Below are positions 2,854-8,862 of a DNA stretch of 8,901 nucleotides, piece by piece (the first letter of the stretch is position 1; each line of letters starts with the position of its first letter). A program made the position numbers and the translations under genes. Origin of the DNA: Candidatus Hydrogenedentes bacterium CG07_land_8_20_14_0_80_42_17. GTDB taxonomy: Bacteria > UBA8481. The notes under the pieces were generated by a model. That model worked only from the letters and a program-made list of their open reading frames with translations, was not told the DNA's origin and did no database searches. Location of the stretch: positions 1 to 8,901 of the forward strand of contig PEWQ01000027.1 in NCBI GenBank assembly GCA_002780065.1, read 5' to 3'.

Positions 2854-3676
2854 TTTGACAAATCTTTCAGTAATTAAAAACTCGCTTGCAGAACATGGAA
2901 TCTTTCCGTCTAGAAGGCTGGGACAAAATTTTATCTGCAATTCAGGAGCTATAAAAAAGATCATTGAAGCGGCAATGGCTGAAGAAAAAGAATGTTTGGA
3001 GATCGGGCCCGGACTTGGCGCTCTGACATCAGCTCTTTCTGACATAGCCAAATGCGTCACTGCAGTCGAAGTATGCGAAAAACTTGAAGGAGTTCTTGAA
3101 GAAAATCTCGCAGAACTCAAGAATGTAAAAATTATTTTTCAAGATTTTCTCAAACTCGATCCTAAATCAATTGGAAATTTGAGTTGGGTTGTAGTATCAA
3201 ATCTCCCCTATTCAATTTCTACACCAGCTCTTTTCCGATTCATAGACGGAGGCTTCAAATGGGAGCGCATGATATTTACTCTTCAAGCCGAAGTTGGAGA
3301 ACGACTCGCGGCAAGCCCCAGAACAAAAGAATACGGAGCTTTATCAATTGCGGTGCAGGCATCATGCAAAGTAGAACTGCTGAATCGATTCCCTTCATCT
3401 TTCTTCTGGCCTCGGCCAAAAATCGAATCGGTGCTCGTAAGACTCACGCCTTCCGAAAACGAGAAGCCTTTACCAGTCTTAAGAAAAGTTCTCCGCACAG
3501 CTTTTTCATCGAGACGCAAAACAATGAGGAATGCTATGAAAGGAATAGAACACGGAATCGAGGCTCTATCAGCCGCTAAACTCGATCCGAATTGCAGACC
3601 CGAGGAAATCCCTGTTCCGCTCTGGATTGAACTCGCTAGAAAAATCTCTGAACTCGAAAATAAAAAAGATATATGA
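2843..3676 (+). CDS. rsmA: 16S rRNA (adenine1518/1519-N6)-dimethyltransferase
   Basis: RsmA (KsgA) uses S-adenosylmethionine to dimethylate two adjacent adenines near the 3' end of 16S rRNA during late 30S assembly. Motifs run in the family order: RRLGQNF (24-30), the SAM-binding loop EIGPGLGALT (53-62), the catalytic NLPY (120-123), FWPRPKIESVLVRL (188-201) and the basic FSSRRKTMRN (221-230). The length of 277 residues is typical. The ATG at 2843 lies inside the end of pdxA (11 nt overlap), with a weak GGA 8 nt upstream. The stop overlaps the next start as ATGA. In E. coli rsmA is followed by apaG and apaH; here that place is taken by the unusual cassette described below. Confidence 0.95.
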   Translation: MPNDLTNLSVIKNSLAEHGIFPSRRLGQNFICNSGAIKKIIEAAMAEEKECLEIGPGLGALTSALSDIAKCVTAVEVCEKLEGVLEENLAELKNVKIIFQDFLKLDPKSIGNLSWVVVSNLPYSISTPALFRFIDGGFKWERMIFTLQAEVGERLAASPRTKEYGALSIAVQASCKVELLNRFPSSFFWPRPKIESVLVRLTPSENEKPLPVLRKVLRTAFSSRRKTMRNAMKGIEHGIEALSAAKLDPNCRPEEIPVPLWIELARKISELENKKDI

Positions 3677-4200
3677 GGGAAGAATCGAATTCAAAAATCA
3701 TTTCGCATGTAAAACCAGTAATCATCTCCGCAGTTAAATGTAATTACAATTGTAAAGGTTGTCCTAAAGCCGACGCGAAAGACGGATTAGTTGTAAGAAT
3801 TGTTGGTTACAACAAAAATACCTCAAAATTAATTTCGGCGTTTCAGCACCGATTTGTGGAACTTGCATCCGGCAATCTACCGACCGACGTTGAAACTTAT
3901 TTCGAATTAAAATCGTGCGGTCTCAATCGTTTAATCGTTCCGCTATTCGGATTGGAATCAGAACATGACAAATTAACAAATGAAAAAGGCTCGTTTAAAA
4001 AAACATTGAAAGCGCTGAAAGCGGCAAAAAAAGCGAGTCTCGAGTCTTGGATAATAACACCTGCCGGCAATATTAAAGAGATGGCTCATGAACATTCCGA
4101 TAATTTACGAAGACTTATGAGGCTTGGCTGGGACCTTCACTCGAAATTAATGCTTTACGATAAAGTTCATCTTCCTTGCTATGCTGAATATTTTGAGTAA
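3673..4200 (+). CDS. Small degenerate radical SAM-type protein
   Basis: A CxxxCxxC motif (Cys23, Cys27, Cys30, in VKCNYNCKGCPKA) is the classic [4Fe-4S]-binding loop of radical SAM enzymes. The rest reads like a radical SAM barrel: strand VVRIVG (40-45), strand FVELASGN (61-68) where many members have a TNG turn, strand RLIVPLFG (86-93), then ESEHDKLTNEKGSFKKTLKA and strand SWIITPAGN. Two things are odd. Only about nine residues separate the cluster loop from the next strand, so helix alpha-1 is missing. The GGEP motif that contacts SAM is replaced by VGYNK. The whole protein has 175 residues and lacks a C-terminal auxiliary-cluster (SPASM) region. The start overlaps the rsmA stop (ATGA). It may modify the adjacent 63-residue peptide, or it may be a non-catalytic relative; both are inference. 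Confidence 0.7.
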   Translation: MREESNSKIISHVKPVIISAVKCNYNCKGCPKADAKDGLVVRIVGYNKNTSKLISAFQHRFVELASGNLPTDVETYFELKSCGLNRLIVPLFGLESEHDKLTNEKGSFKKTLKALKAAKKASLESWIITPAGNIKEMAHEHSDNLRRLMRLGWDLHSKLMLYDKVHLPCYAEYFE

Positions 4201-4209
4201 GATTAAATT

Positions 4210-4401
4210 ATGAGTGAAAAAGAAACAATAGTAAAAAAAAGAGAGTATTCGCGCCCTGCCCTGACGCGCTACAGAATGAAAGAGAGCATTGCAGAATATC
4301 AACTTGCCCATTCAACACCAAACGTCTTGAAATGCGCTAATAATCCGCCTGGATGTCGCGGCAGAGGCAGAAGCCTATTCGCTCCGCCGCCGTGGGGTTA
4401 G
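4210..4401 (+). CDS. 63-residue putative precursor peptide (RiPP-like)
   Basis: I recognise no named family. The first 34 residues are charged and include YSRPALTRY (13-21), a Tyr-x-x-Pro-x-Leu pattern followed by a predicted helix (KESIAEYQLAH). Lasso and several other ribosomal peptide leaders use a similar YxxPxLxxxG pattern to bind their recognition domain. The last 27 residues differ sharply: two cysteines (Cys42, Cys49) flank ANNPPG, then comes Gly/Arg-rich CRGRGR and a proline-rich end, FAPPPWG. This split between a charged leader and a Cys/Gly/Pro-rich tail is what a modified-peptide precursor looks like. It sits 9 nt after the radical SAM-type gene and 12 nt before the next, in the same orientation. 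No strong Shine-Dalgarno site is seen. An ordinary small protein, for instance one that only binds a neighbour, is the alternative. Confidence 0.6.
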   Translation: MSEKETIVKKREYSRPALTRYRMKESIAEYQLAHSTPNVLKCANNPPGCRGRGRSLFAPPPWG

Positions 4402-4413
4402 TCAATTCCTGCC

Positions 4414-5100
4414 ATGCCGAACAAAACTTCACTTCAACGCTCATCAACTTACATAAACGGTTGGGAAGTTGCTCTACAAATTGACGAAAATGCCGCTCCG
4501 TATAAAAATCTTATCGAATGCATAGAATTTTCCAACGGTTCAAAAACATTTTATCTTTTCGATCTCGATTGTCCTGAAGACGACATTATTGGAATGGTAG
4601 GAATAATCCGCGGCGGAGTTGGCTCGATTGGGCTCATATATCAGGACTCGTTCAAATCGCTTTCAAGATTAATTCAGGAGTTCGAACTAATCCTGCCTGA
4701 GTGTAATAATTTGAAAGCAATGGCAATTCATATACCAGAAGGCAAGGATGTTATCACCATAAGTAAAACTTTTTTTCCACAGCCTTTCCACTTGTTTTCA
4801 AATAGTGTAAAAAATGTTGTTGAGCAAATATTTGAAGAAAGCAATAAAAAAGAAGCTAAAGAAATAAAGGAAAAAGTTCAACAATATGACGTGGAACTTT
4901 CAGATAAAGATTCAATTATAGTTTTTTCCGGAAATGCGTCTATCAACAGCAATTCCCAAGATTTGCAAGAGATTATAAGAACAAACCTCAATGATTTTTC
5001 TGATGCTTCGGCTTTATCTTGTCTCACTTCTCTTTCTGAATCCTGCAGTAAAGCACAATTGGCTCACCCTCTACTCTGGATCAAAAGAACCAATCCTTAA
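4414..5100 (+). CDS. Uncharacterised protein, possible SpoIIE/PP2C-like pseudophosphatase
   Basis: No family is certain. The layout of this 228-residue protein resembles a SpoIIE-type PP2C phosphatase domain. NGWEVALQIDENAAP (15-29) is followed by NGSKTFYLFDLDCPEDD (41-57), where active enzymes have a strand ending in DVSGHG. A helix SFKSLSRLIQEFELILPE lines up with the 'LN' helix. LKAMAIHIPEGKDVITISKTFFPQPFHL matches the strand pair before the usual AGHPP, and VELSDKDSIIVFSGNASI (160-177) matches the segment that normally ends YTDGVTE. The C-terminal WIKRT takes the place of the DDxT strand. All expected metal-binding Asp positions appear lost, so a binding or regulatory role would be likelier than phosphatase activity. 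There is no signal peptide or membrane segment. It closes the cassette. The fold assignment is my alignment by eye. Confidence 0.5.
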   Translation: MPNKTSLQRSSTYINGWEVALQIDENAAPYKNLIECIEFSNGSKTFYLFDLDCPEDDIIGMVGIIRGGVGSIGLIYQDSFKSLSRLIQEFELILPECNNLKAMAIHIPEGKDVITISKTFFPQPFHLFSNSVKNVVEQIFEESNKKEAKEIKEKVQQYDVELSDKDSIIVFSGNASINSNSQDLQEIIRTNLNDFSDASALSCLTSLSESCSKAQLAHPLLWIKRTNP

Positions 5101-5212: not shown

Positions 5213-5437
5213 GTGACAGAAGAACAACAAATACAGAAAGACGAATTTCTCACCAGCAAAGAGGCTGAGGAATATCTCAAGGTATCTAGTGTCACCTTAT
5301 GGCGGCTGGTAAAAGAGGGACTCATACCGATATATAAAATTCATAATCGTAATAGATACAGGCGATCTGACCTGGAAAACTTTATGGAATCGCATAAAGT
5401 TTCTTCAGCAAATACTACTCCAGTGAGTTCTAACTAA
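5213..5437 (+). CDS. Small winged helix-turn-helix DNA-binding protein (excisionase/MerR-like HTH)
   Basis: This 74-residue protein consists almost entirely of one HTH_17-type domain. LTSKEAEEYLKVSSVTLWRL (13-32) is the helix-turn-helix, and LIPIYKIHNRNRYRRSDLENFM (37-58) supplies the wing and closing helix. The tail is a short Ser/Thr-rich stretch. The family covers phage excisionases, MerR-like regulators and many stand-alone chromosomal proteins. No integrase or attachment site is nearby, so a local transcription or nucleoid role is more likely. Its start is GTG at 5213 with AGGAG at 5201-5205. An inverted-repeat cluster follows its stop and could be its own operator or an RNA hairpin. The target is unknown. 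Confidence 0.85.
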   Translation: MTEEQQIQKDEFLTSKEAEEYLKVSSVTLWRLVKEGLIPIYKIHNRNRYRRSDLENFMESHKVSSANTTPVSSN

Positions 5438-5478: not shown

Positions 5479-6288
5479 GTGCAAAAATACAGAAGTAAAA
5501 GATTTGAAAGGCATATTTATCGGCGAAGGCCACGTTTCATAAATCATGGCTTTTACGATTTACTCACAAACATCACGTCTGACAGAGTCATAATTTCTCT
5601 ACTTTTTATTGCCGCAATACTTTTTGTAACATTAGATGCGCCAAATATGTTTGAAACCCAGAAGGCATGGGCTCTGACTAATAGATTTGTTCCTTACGAA
5701 CTTGCTTTAACCAATTTTGTCAAGCGGTCGGAATCAAAAGGAACCAGCTCTTCACTTCTAGACCTTCCTACCATAAAAATGAATCCAATGAAAGCGTGGG
5801 GCGGAAGAGTTCCTGAAATGGACCTAATTAACACCAACTCCAATTCCAGCATTACTTCATCCGAGATTCATGAGAAAGCCATAATTGATAATGACCAAAT
5901 AAATAGCAGCAAGCCCTGCAATATTTCTTCACCATTCGGATACAGGCGATTAGGCAGAAGCGTCAGGCATCACGATGGAATCGACGTTTCAATGCCGTAC
6001 GGAAGACCGATACTAGCGAATGAAGACGGGACCGTATCATTTGCGGGTTGGAAGAGCGGATACGGAAATCTTGTCATCTTGGATCACGGATATGGAAAGC
6101 AAACCTTTTACGCTCACGCTTCATATATCAGAGTAAAAGTCGGAGACAATATAAAAGAAGGCGAGGCCATAGCAAATGTTGGAGCAACGGGTCGGGCATT
6201 CGGCACACATTTGCATTTTGAGATAAGGTATAACGGAGTTCCAGTAGACCCTGAGCAAGAATTTTTATCTAAGAAGTTGTATTTCTGA
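5479..6288 (+). CDS. Membrane-anchored M23 (LytM-type) zinc endopeptidase
   Basis: This protein is expected to cut, or regulate the cutting of, peptide cross-links in peptidoglycan outside the cytoplasmic membrane. A very basic cytoplasmic start (RSKRFERHIYRRRPR) leads into one transmembrane segment at about 37-53 (VIISLLFIAAILFVTLD). A Ser/Asn-rich linker follows, then the LytM domain at about 147-262. Catalytic residues are intact: HHDGIDV gives His165 and Asp169, YAHAS gives His213, and HLHFEIR gives His244 and His246. His165, Asp169 and His246 should bind zinc; His213 and His244 should act in catalysis. No coiled coil like that of EnvC or NlpD relatives is seen between anchor and domain. 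It lies 41 nt after the HTH gene and 23 nt before the FapA gene. Confidence 0.92.
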   Translation: MQKYRSKRFERHIYRRRPRFINHGFYDLLTNITSDRVIISLLFIAAILFVTLDAPNMFETQKAWALTNRFVPYELALTNFVKRSESKGTSSSLLDLPTIKMNPMKAWGGRVPEMDLINTNSNSSITSSEIHEKAIIDNDQINSSKPCNISSPFGYRRLGRSVRHHDGIDVSMPYGRPILANEDGTVSFAGWKSGYGNLVILDHGYGKQTFYAHASYIRVKVGDNIKEGEAIANVGATGRAFGTHLHFEIRYNGVPVDPEQEFLSKKLYF

Positions 6289-6311: not shown

Positions 6312-8165
6312 GTGATTGAAGATAAGAGCAAAAACGAATCAAAAGATAAGAATAAAATTCTTATCTCTGCAAAAAATCTGCGAGAGGCAATTAAAACAGC
6401 CGCAGAAAAACTCGGGTGTCCCGAGCGCAACATTCGTTACCAAATAATACAGAATCCCCGTTACATATTTTTTGGATTATGGTCACAGTCTGCAAAGATA
6501 ATTGCATGGAAGCATGATGCTCTAAATATGCACGTAGCGGAAGCATTACGCGCGGCAAGTGATATAGACGGACATATCTCAACTGAATTAATTAATTCTG
6601 AGCTCAGACTAACTGTTTACGCTCCGATCGGAAGAGGAATTCCAGTATCATTCGAAAAAGTAATCACAAATCTTAGAGAATACGAACCTGACGAACTTGA
6701 TGAAGAGAAAGTTAGAGATTTAGTCAACCGAGCTGACGGCAAATCCGAAACGGTAGGGCGAATTTCAAAAAGCGGAGGACGCGACGGCACATTTTCCATC
6801 GACGTTTCAAAAGATGGAATGGAAGCTTATCTAACACTCTTTCCGCCAGGAAAAGGCGGAAGAAAGATTGATCTCGAAGATATAATAAAAGGGTTAGTTC
6901 GAGAAGGAATTGTATACGGTTTAAAAGAAGACATAATTAAATGGGCTATTTCCGAAAACAGGTACAACGAATCGATTTTAATAGCAGAAGGCAATTCTCC
7001 AGTCCCCGGAGCAGACGGCAGGCTTGAATTCAAATTCAGAAAAGATCTGCACATTATCAAATTGAAAGAAGACGAGAAAGGACGAGTTGATTACAAAAAT
7101 CTTGAGCTGATAGAAATGGTCAAAGCCGGAGACATTCTCATTGAAAGGATTCCATCTGAACTTGGAGAAGCCGGAAAAAATGTTTACGGCAAAGAAAGTC
7201 TGCCTCTTTCCGGAAAAGATGTGGAACTGCCTCAAGGTGAAAACATTAAAGTCGAAGGTAATACAATGCTGGCCGGGATAGAAGGGCATGTAATTTGGAG
7301 CACTGGCAAAGTAACAATATCTCCCGTGTATTATGTCAAAGGCGATGTAAATTACAGCACAGGAAATATTGATTTCAATGGAACTGTCTGCATAGACGGG
7401 CTTGTTGAAGACTCTTTCAGCGTAAAAGCCGGCGGCAGTATTATTGTAAAAAAGTCGATAGGCAAATGCAAAATTTCAGCGGGCGGAAACGTAACAGTAT
7501 TAGGTGGAATACTTGGCAGGCAGGAAGCAGAAATAGATATTGACGGAGATCTCGTCGCATTGTTTATCGAGAACGCCAAATTAAAAGTTAAAGGCAATTT
7601 AATTACCAGTGAAATGATTCTTCACTCTAATGCTATAGTCGGAGGAGAAATATTTTTAAATGGAGTCAGAGCCGCTCTGGTAGGAGGATCGGTAACAGCC
7701 GGAAGAGACATAACTGTTCGGAGCATTGGTGGAGAAGGCACAAGCAGAACTTCTGTTAGAGCAGGAGTCAAATACAAATATGCTGTCAAACAACTTGAGC
7801 TAAAAGAAGAGATGGCTCGAATCGACAGCATAATAGAAAAAATAGATACCGCAATAAAGCAAGTTGAGTCGAATAAAGAAACTTCCTCCGATTATGTCAA
7901 TACAATGAAACAGCTGATAACGAGAAAGAACCAGATACAGTTACATCTCAAAGCATTGCGCGAAGAGAGCCGAACACTTGAAAATGAAATCGACTTAAAT
8001 TCAGCTCATGCATCTATAAATGTTTATGAGTTAGTTATGCCCGGAACCAAAATTGAAATTGGAAACACTTCAATGGTAATATCAAACAACATAAAATACG
8101 TCACATTTAAAAAACTTGGAGTAAAAATCAATGTTATGCCTTATGAAGGCAAAAGCATCGAATAA
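6312..8165 (+). CDS. FapA/DUF342 family protein with N-terminal Jag-N domain
   Basis: The 617-residue protein has four parts. Residues about 15-68 look like a Jag-N (KhpB N-terminal) domain (ILISAKNLREAIKTAAEKLG, then a strand with IFFGLWSQSAKI). Residues about 155-335 hold the conserved FapA region with AEGNSPVPGADGR (225-237) and AGIEGHV. Residues about 335-485 form a repetitive, glycine-rich beta-helix (VKGDVNYSTGNIDFNG, VKAGGSIIVKKSIG, GGNVTVLGGILG). Residues about 490-562 are a charged helical stretch that should form a coiled coil, before a short beta-rich tail. FapA proteins are widespread; links to polymerisation or envelope scaffolding have been proposed, and the biochemical role is not settled. 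Here the neighbouring M23 peptidase hints at a cell-shape role. The start is GTG at 6312 with only a weak purine-rich leader. Confidence 0.9.
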   Translation: MIEDKSKNESKDKNKILISAKNLREAIKTAAEKLGCPERNIRYQIIQNPRYIFFGLWSQSAKIIAWKHDALNMHVAEALRAASDIDGHISTELINSELRLTVYAPIGRGIPVSFEKVITNLREYEPDELDEEKVRDLVNRADGKSETVGRISKSGGRDGTFSIDVSKDGMEAYLTLFPPGKGGRKIDLEDIIKGLVREGIVYGLKEDIIKWAISENRYNESILIAEGNSPVPGADGRLEFKFRKDLHIIKLKEDEKGRVDYKNLELIEMVKAGDILIERIPSELGEAGKNVYGKESLPLSGKDVELPQGENIKVEGNTMLAGIEGHVIWSTGKVTISPVYYVKGDVNYSTGNIDFNGTVCIDGLVEDSFSVKAGGSIIVKKSIGKCKISAGGNVTVLGGILGRQEAEIDIDGDLVALFIENAKLKVKGNLITSEMILHSNAIVGGEIFLNGVRAALVGGSVTAGRDITVRSIGGEGTSRTSVRAGVKYKYAVKQLELKEEMARIDSIIEKIDTAIKQVESNKETSSDYVNTMKQLITRKNQIQLHLKALREESRTLENEIDLNSAHASINVYELVMPGTKIEIGNTSMVISNNIKYVTFKKLGVKINVMPYEGKSIE

Positions 8166-8862
8166 TTCAATATTGAACTCAAGTAAGTTGATTATTATTG
8201 AAGAAGAACTGCATCTATGGTATCGGCATCTAGCAATTAACTGCAAGCAAACTGAATCTATCAAATTATTATCCGAAGACGAAATTGAAAGAGCGGAACA
8301 AATCACAAATGCACAAAGTCGAATGACGTTTATCGAATCGCGATCAACATTGAGAAATATTTTAGCAATGTATTTAGACAAAGATCCAAAAAGTTTGAGA
8401 CTTGAAAAGAGCTTAAACGGCAAACCGCATCTAAAAGGTAAAAGTCATCTTTGCTTTAATATCGCTCATACAAATGGCATAGCTCTATTTGCAATATCTA
8501 ACGGTGCGGAGGTAGGAGTTGACGTTGAACGAATAGACAGAAGAATCGATTCAGATGCAATCGCAAAAAGATTTTTTTCAATAAGAGAACAGAATATTTT
8601 AAAAAAGCTATCTGTCAAAAAAAAGCAAAAATACTTTTTCGAATGTTGGACATGCAAAGAGGCTGTTGTAAAAGCAATGGATAAAAAAGTAATTTATCAT
8701 CTATCAGAAATTGAGCTCTCCGAAAATAAAGATTCAATAATGATAAAAGATAATCCTGATGCCGAGCACTGGCGAATCTGGTTTCCAAAACTTCCCAATG
8801 GATTTATCGGAGCAGTCGTAAGAAAAAAGGGGCAATTCAATACGAATGTTAGCCGCATCTGA
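8131..8862 (+). CDS. 4'-phosphopantetheinyl transferase, Sfp type
   Basis: This enzyme moves the phosphopantetheine arm of coenzyme A onto a serine of acyl or peptidyl carrier proteins. The expected motifs are present in order: NGKPHL (96-101), CFNIAHTNG (108-116), VGVDVERI (128-135) with metal ligands Asp131 and Glu133, and FFECWTCKEAVVKAMDK (169-185) with Glu177 and Lys181. The 243 residues match the Sfp group rather than the short AcpS group. The ATG at 8131 has GGAG 9 nt upstream, at 8118-8121, and lies inside the end of the FapA gene (35 nt overlap), so the two are probably cotranslated; Met5 (8143) is a second possible start. No carrier protein, PKS or NRPS gene is in the window, so its substrate may be the fatty-acid ACP or a distant pathway. 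Confidence 0.92.
   Translation: MLCLMKAKASNNSILNSSKLIIIEEELHLWYRHLAINCKQTESIKLLSEDEIERAEQITNAQSRMTFIESRSTLRNILAMYLDKDPKSLRLEKSLNGKPHLKGKSHLCFNIAHTNGIALFAISNGAEVGVDVERIDRRIDSDAIAKRFFSIREQNILKKLSVKKKQKYFFECWTCKEAVVKAMDKKVIYHLSEIELSENKDSIMIKDNPDAEHWRIWFPKLPNGFIGAVVRKKGQFNTNVSRI

Follow-up and report, generated by a model that had tools for sequence, protein, structure and literature searches.

Radical SAM/SPASM clusters that depend on an RRE (PqqD) domain and carry YxxP leaders are a known kind of RiPP system, represented by PQQ, the StsB/StsC-type sactipeptides and many unnamed clusters, and the YxxP motif has been described as a class of RRE ligand (PMC12710340). The two loci considered here, A and B, probably fit this RRE-guided kind, their unusual features being a split layout, an enzyme of the PRMT type and a plausible pseudo-SpoIIE companion. 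Like the known clusters, locus A combines the leader motif with a discrete RRE, a SPASM maturase and a short Cys-containing precursor, but unlike them it reaches no NCBIfam equivalog cutoff, includes a PRMT-family methyltransferase and is matched by a second precursor (B), which is encoded elsewhere beside a partner protein of its own. Some prochlorosin precursors are likewise encoded away from ProcM. That enzyme is promiscuous and acts on many precursors (PMC10783134), a precedent for the use of a maturase in trans that we propose here, although the prochlorosins differ in their lanthipeptide chemistry and in their variable cores, whereas in peptide B conservation is highest at the end of the core.

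The window, that is, the whole stretch analysed, covers contig C156 (8901 bp) of genome G000 (207 contigs, 87% complete) from end to end, and comparison within the phylum covered two genomes, G000 itself and G001, of the same order. As the first-pass annotation had described, three ORFs follow one another on the + strand at 3673-4200 (175 aa), 4210-4401 (63 aa) and 4414-5100 (228 aa), with gaps of 9 and 12 nt, and the first is coupled to rsmA through an ATGA overlap, its ATG beginning at 3673 and the rsmA stop occupying 3674-3676. Synonymous codon choice in the three resembles that of other G000 genes (z of 4.5, 2.8 and 4.7, with rsmA at 7.7), and they are therefore coding frames rather than chance ORFs. 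Downstream on the same strand lie a small HTH_17 (excisionase-type) DNA-binding protein (5213-5437; PF12728, 3.8e-14), 66% identical to its syntenic counterpart in G001, and an M23 peptidase (5479-6288; PF01551, 1.7e-34), also syntenic there, with 62% identity over the domain. Promoter and terminator scans gave scores no higher than those of shuffles. Elsewhere in the window two tRNA genes stand on opposite strands at the contig start (8-79, +; 168-238, -), and a gene for an Sfp-type phosphopantetheinyl transferase (8131-8862) overlaps the end of a FapA-like gene.

The middle frame (4210-4401, + strand) had been read as a leader-like half joined to a Cys/Gly/Pro-rich half, the mark of a RiPP precursor, and its relatives bear this out. 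Peptide B is 43% identical to precursor A of G000 over 54 residues (BLASTP E 3e-12) and also matches precursor A of G001 (BLASTP E 5e-9), and when 386 genomes were searched with a profile of these three, a fourth peptide turned up on G001 contig C119 (E 2.5e-10), so that B has both a paralogue in its own genome and an orthologue in the other. Its leader, KREYSRPALTRYR...EYQ, carries YSRPAL (4246-4263, + strand), a YxxP-type motif and predicted RRE ligand that aligns as Y/W-x-K/R-P in precursors A and B. The pattern KPxLxRYR...EYQ is common to the A and B leaders, and Y/WxxP, RYR and YQ are kept in all four peptides. The tail, which forms a separate core, has two Cys, GRGR and APPPWG. In alignment score the B leader lies nearer to that of A than to that of the second radical SAM-peptide pair in the genome. 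No viral relatives came up in a scan with the alignment of the peptides. Profile matches in G340, G103 and G077, among those with E between 1e-4 and 0.1, were rejected as antisense or chance ORFs; a match in G370 adjoins a full radical SAM/SPASM gene with an RRE, has a YxxP-type leader and is perhaps a distant cousin of the A/B precursors.

The end of the core is the most constrained part of the peptide. In the tail GRGRSLFAPPPWG (4360-4398, + strand) all 13 residues are identical to those of the G001 orthologue despite synonymous differences at 10 of the 13 codons, which indicates strong purifying selection; the background identity between the two genomes is 39% for rsmA, 43% for pdxA, 41% for the whole M23 protein and 25% for P3, the product of the third frame. 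The first-pass annotation had let its reading depend on the peptide being conserved outside its own genome and under purifying selection, and both hold. Most known RiPPs have a conserved leader and a variable core. Here the usually variable core end is frozen between two distantly related genomes, at a site away from the likely enzymes, which suggests a fixed target for peptide B and points to a housekeeping-type function, as a cofactor or signal, rather than one in warfare.

Those likely enzymes lie on another contig. An RRE domain search over G000 returned one discrete PqqD/RRE protein above cutoff, on contig C150, where it shares a strand with a full radical SAM/SPASM maturase, precursor A and a methyltransferase (locus A, L026); the same four genes occur in the same order in G001. 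The earlier observation that no separate recognition domain is visible is thus accurate for the window, which has no RRE beside peptide B, but it missed the one at locus A. Relatives of the locus-A radical SAM/SPASM protein in other genomes often stand beside RREs and short Y-x-x-P peptides, and the enzyme is one of a broad group associated with RREs, none of its matches reaching the cutoff of a named equivalog. Close upstream of locus A (L026 3450-10400) are two large proteins, named by eye as CHASE2/adenylate-cyclase-like.

The locus-A methyltransferase matches the sequences of PRMT1 structures with an E of 2e-31 and shares with PRMT1-type arginine methyltransferases a Rossmann fold and the double-E loop, which reads SEMLGNVLLDE and SETIGNMMLDE in the two genomes; KEWPKQHWY and KTWPNQSWY occupy a place comparable to the canonical PRMT THW loop. 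It differs from them in being bacterial, in lying inside a RiPP cluster and in its putative peptide substrate. Arg flanked by Gly, as in GRG, is a common target of PRMTs, and GRG is present in both B peptides and in one A peptide. It is absent from precursor A of G000, so GRG methylation would not be general to the family. A PRMT-family enzyme in an RRE/radical SAM cluster together with GRG cores gives a concrete idea of how peptide arginine methylation might occur in bacteria. In an unrelated genome, L084 (1-2286; G214:C34) holds a PRMT-like methyltransferase, a kinase-like protein, an RRE and two tandem RG-rich short proteins (RGVARGRARGVARGRITPPPGRGRGRG), and is a possible arginine-methylated RiPP. 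Short RG-rich proteins beside other PRMT-like genes were convincing in L084 only, the remaining RG-rich ORFs lying mostly in high-GC regions and looking like noise, so the PRMT/RG peptide idea is supported by one independent case.

The counterpart of the window locus in G001 (C119, L059) has the peptide, a P3-like protein of 255 aa, the HTH protein and the M23 peptidase in the order seen in the window, with no radical SAM frame upstream of the peptide before a divergent pilB-like gene. The conserved unit is therefore the peptide with P3, HTH and M23; only the lineage of the window has the short radical SAM gene. Because surA-pdxA-rsmA lies in G001 on a different contig from peptide-P3-HTH-M23, that gene stands where two ancestral blocks meet. 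Of the expectation that homologues of all three genes would co-occur, the part concerning the third gene stands, since peptide and P3 are side by side in both genomes; the radical SAM gene is missing from the G001 locus.

The short radical SAM protein (3673-4200, + strand; 175 aa, codon z 4.5) had been called degenerate, an assessment with which our comparisons agree. It matches Pfam PF04055 above the cutoff (E 8.7e-8), with only residues 64-131 aligned. In an alignment with four full-length SPASM proteins from G000 and G001 it keeps the CX3CX2C cluster motif as CNYNCKGC in invariant columns (residues 23-30; 3739-3762, + strand), but GYN replaces GGE, the distance from the last cluster Cys to this position is 15 residues instead of 35, and about 20 residues after the cluster motif, corresponding to the first helix, are missing, leaving an incomplete partial TIM barrel. 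The protein ends before any C-terminal SPASM/twitch domain. As its frame is open and the deletions are in frame, we rejected the view of it as a simple frameshifted pseudogene. Matches to it in 372 genomes are partial and fall within proteins of ordinary full length; no similarly short homologue was found among them, nor an orthologue in G001, and scans of the genome and viral collections returned no relatives of it. It is best explained as a reduced accessory protein or relic and probably not the main catalyst of peptide B maturation. A pure relic is argued against by the retained cluster Cys, intact frame, native codons and translational coupling. AlphaFold2 run without homologues reached a mean pLDDT of only 35-36 for this protein and for P3, and the fold search was therefore given no weight.

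P3 (4414-5100, + strand; 228 aa) is weakly SpoIIE/PP2C-like. It has no family match in Pfam, NCBIfam or PDB sequences, no relatives in genome and viral collection scans, and no similarity to the locus-A methyltransferase or the HPrK-like protein. Its global similarity to the positional orthologue in G001 was reached by none of 1000 shuffles, local BLAST being marginal, and at 25% identity it is evolving fast. A profile built from the two sequences scored 25.1 against SpoIIE domains, compared with at most 20.3 in 100 column shuffles and at most 15 for unrelated and reversed-profile controls, at an E of 0.005 and a probability of only 6.8%. The alignment with SpoIIE/RsbU-type PP2C phosphatases falls in the expected register around the AGH and GD...TDG strands, and the metal-binding Asp and the catalytic Asp/Gly motifs are absent from P3. 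The earlier suggestion of a dead SpoIIE phosphatase thus holds for the missing catalytic residues, the resemblance itself being weak, and a catalytically dead "pseudo-SpoIIE" is plausible. A literature search found no paper on SpoIIE in a RiPP/radical SAM system.

We give slightly better than even chances to the reading that the locus-A machinery accepts precursor B as a further substrate and matures it in trans, with the short radical SAM protein an accessory or relic. The RiPP system would then have two loci, with locus B in the window: the locus-A RRE would bind the YxxP-type leader of precursor B, the locus-A radical SAM enzyme would modify the Cys/aromatic core of that precursor, Arg in its GRGR motif may be a methylation site for the PRMT-like enzyme, and P3, as a dedicated partner, would most likely bind or escort the peptide or its product. 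This reading is supported by the paralogous and orthologous precursors, by the RRE-radical SAM-precursor-methyltransferase order that G000 and G001 share, by the location of the single discrete RRE of G000 at locus A and by the closeness of the B leader to A; the G001 locus without a radical SAM gene, the identity of a tail whose neighbors have diverged so far, the PRMT1-like methyltransferase with its double-E loop, and the loss of GGE and SPASM from the short protein argue in the same direction. It is weakened by the lack of GRG in precursor A of G000, by the features that the short radical SAM protein has kept, and by a comparison of two genomes, one of which, at 87% completeness, could hold unseen enzymes. 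The first-pass annotation had instead seen a self-contained cassette, with the short radical SAM protein as the enzyme that modifies peptide B and P3 as a partner. Adjacency and the 9-12-nt gaps speak for it, as do the intact CX3CX2C motif, native codons and purely in-frame deletions, but the missing GGE, core helix and SPASM domain, the G001 orthologue with no adjoining radical SAM gene, the full enzymes at locus A and the want of any similarly short homologue in the genomes searched make it unlikely; what survives of the proposal is a RiPP-type precursor with P3 beside it.

An explanation that we rate a little short of evens concerns the short radical SAM gene only and is compatible with maturation in trans: that gene would be rearrangement debris between the nuoB-surA-pdxA-rsmA and peptide-P3-HTH-M23 blocks, locus B working without it. 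Its position exactly at the junction of blocks that are on separate contigs in G001, where it has no orthologue, fits such an origin, against which stand its open frame, native codon bias and coupling to rsmA. It is improbable, in our estimate, that peptide B is an unmodified small regulatory or RG-type protein descended from a RiPP precursor and acting with P3/HTH; the syntenic G001 locus offers no enzyme, protease or exporter, the tail is hyperconserved like a binding motif and RG motifs are present, yet Y/WxxP, RYR and YQ, needless without an RRE, are retained in all four leaders. Returning to maturation in trans, its most specific form is a doubtful one: in a deep-branching phylum, a RiPP pathway would be split so that PRMT-family and radical SAM/SPASM enzymes act in trans on the invariant GRGRSLFAPPPWG core and the pseudo-SpoIIE protein receives the product. 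If true, the RiPP would be conserved and cofactor- or signal-like, and a dead phosphatase would serve as its receptor. RiPP mining takes precursor and enzymes to be neighbors, and the locus B precursor sits apart from its likely enzymes.

A second radical SAM/SPASM gene with a Cys-rich YxxP-leader peptide occurs in both G000 (C53, L007 6970-8224) and G001 (C58, L006 644-1980); the leader ends in SPSN, and neither copy has an adjoining RRE. On G001 contig C88 (L028 514-3124), an RRE is followed by an ATP-grasp-like and a PLP-decarboxylase-like protein, and the N terminus of the latter resembles a YxxP leader (KKIYEKPMILPQ), making it a possible leader-fused enzyme.
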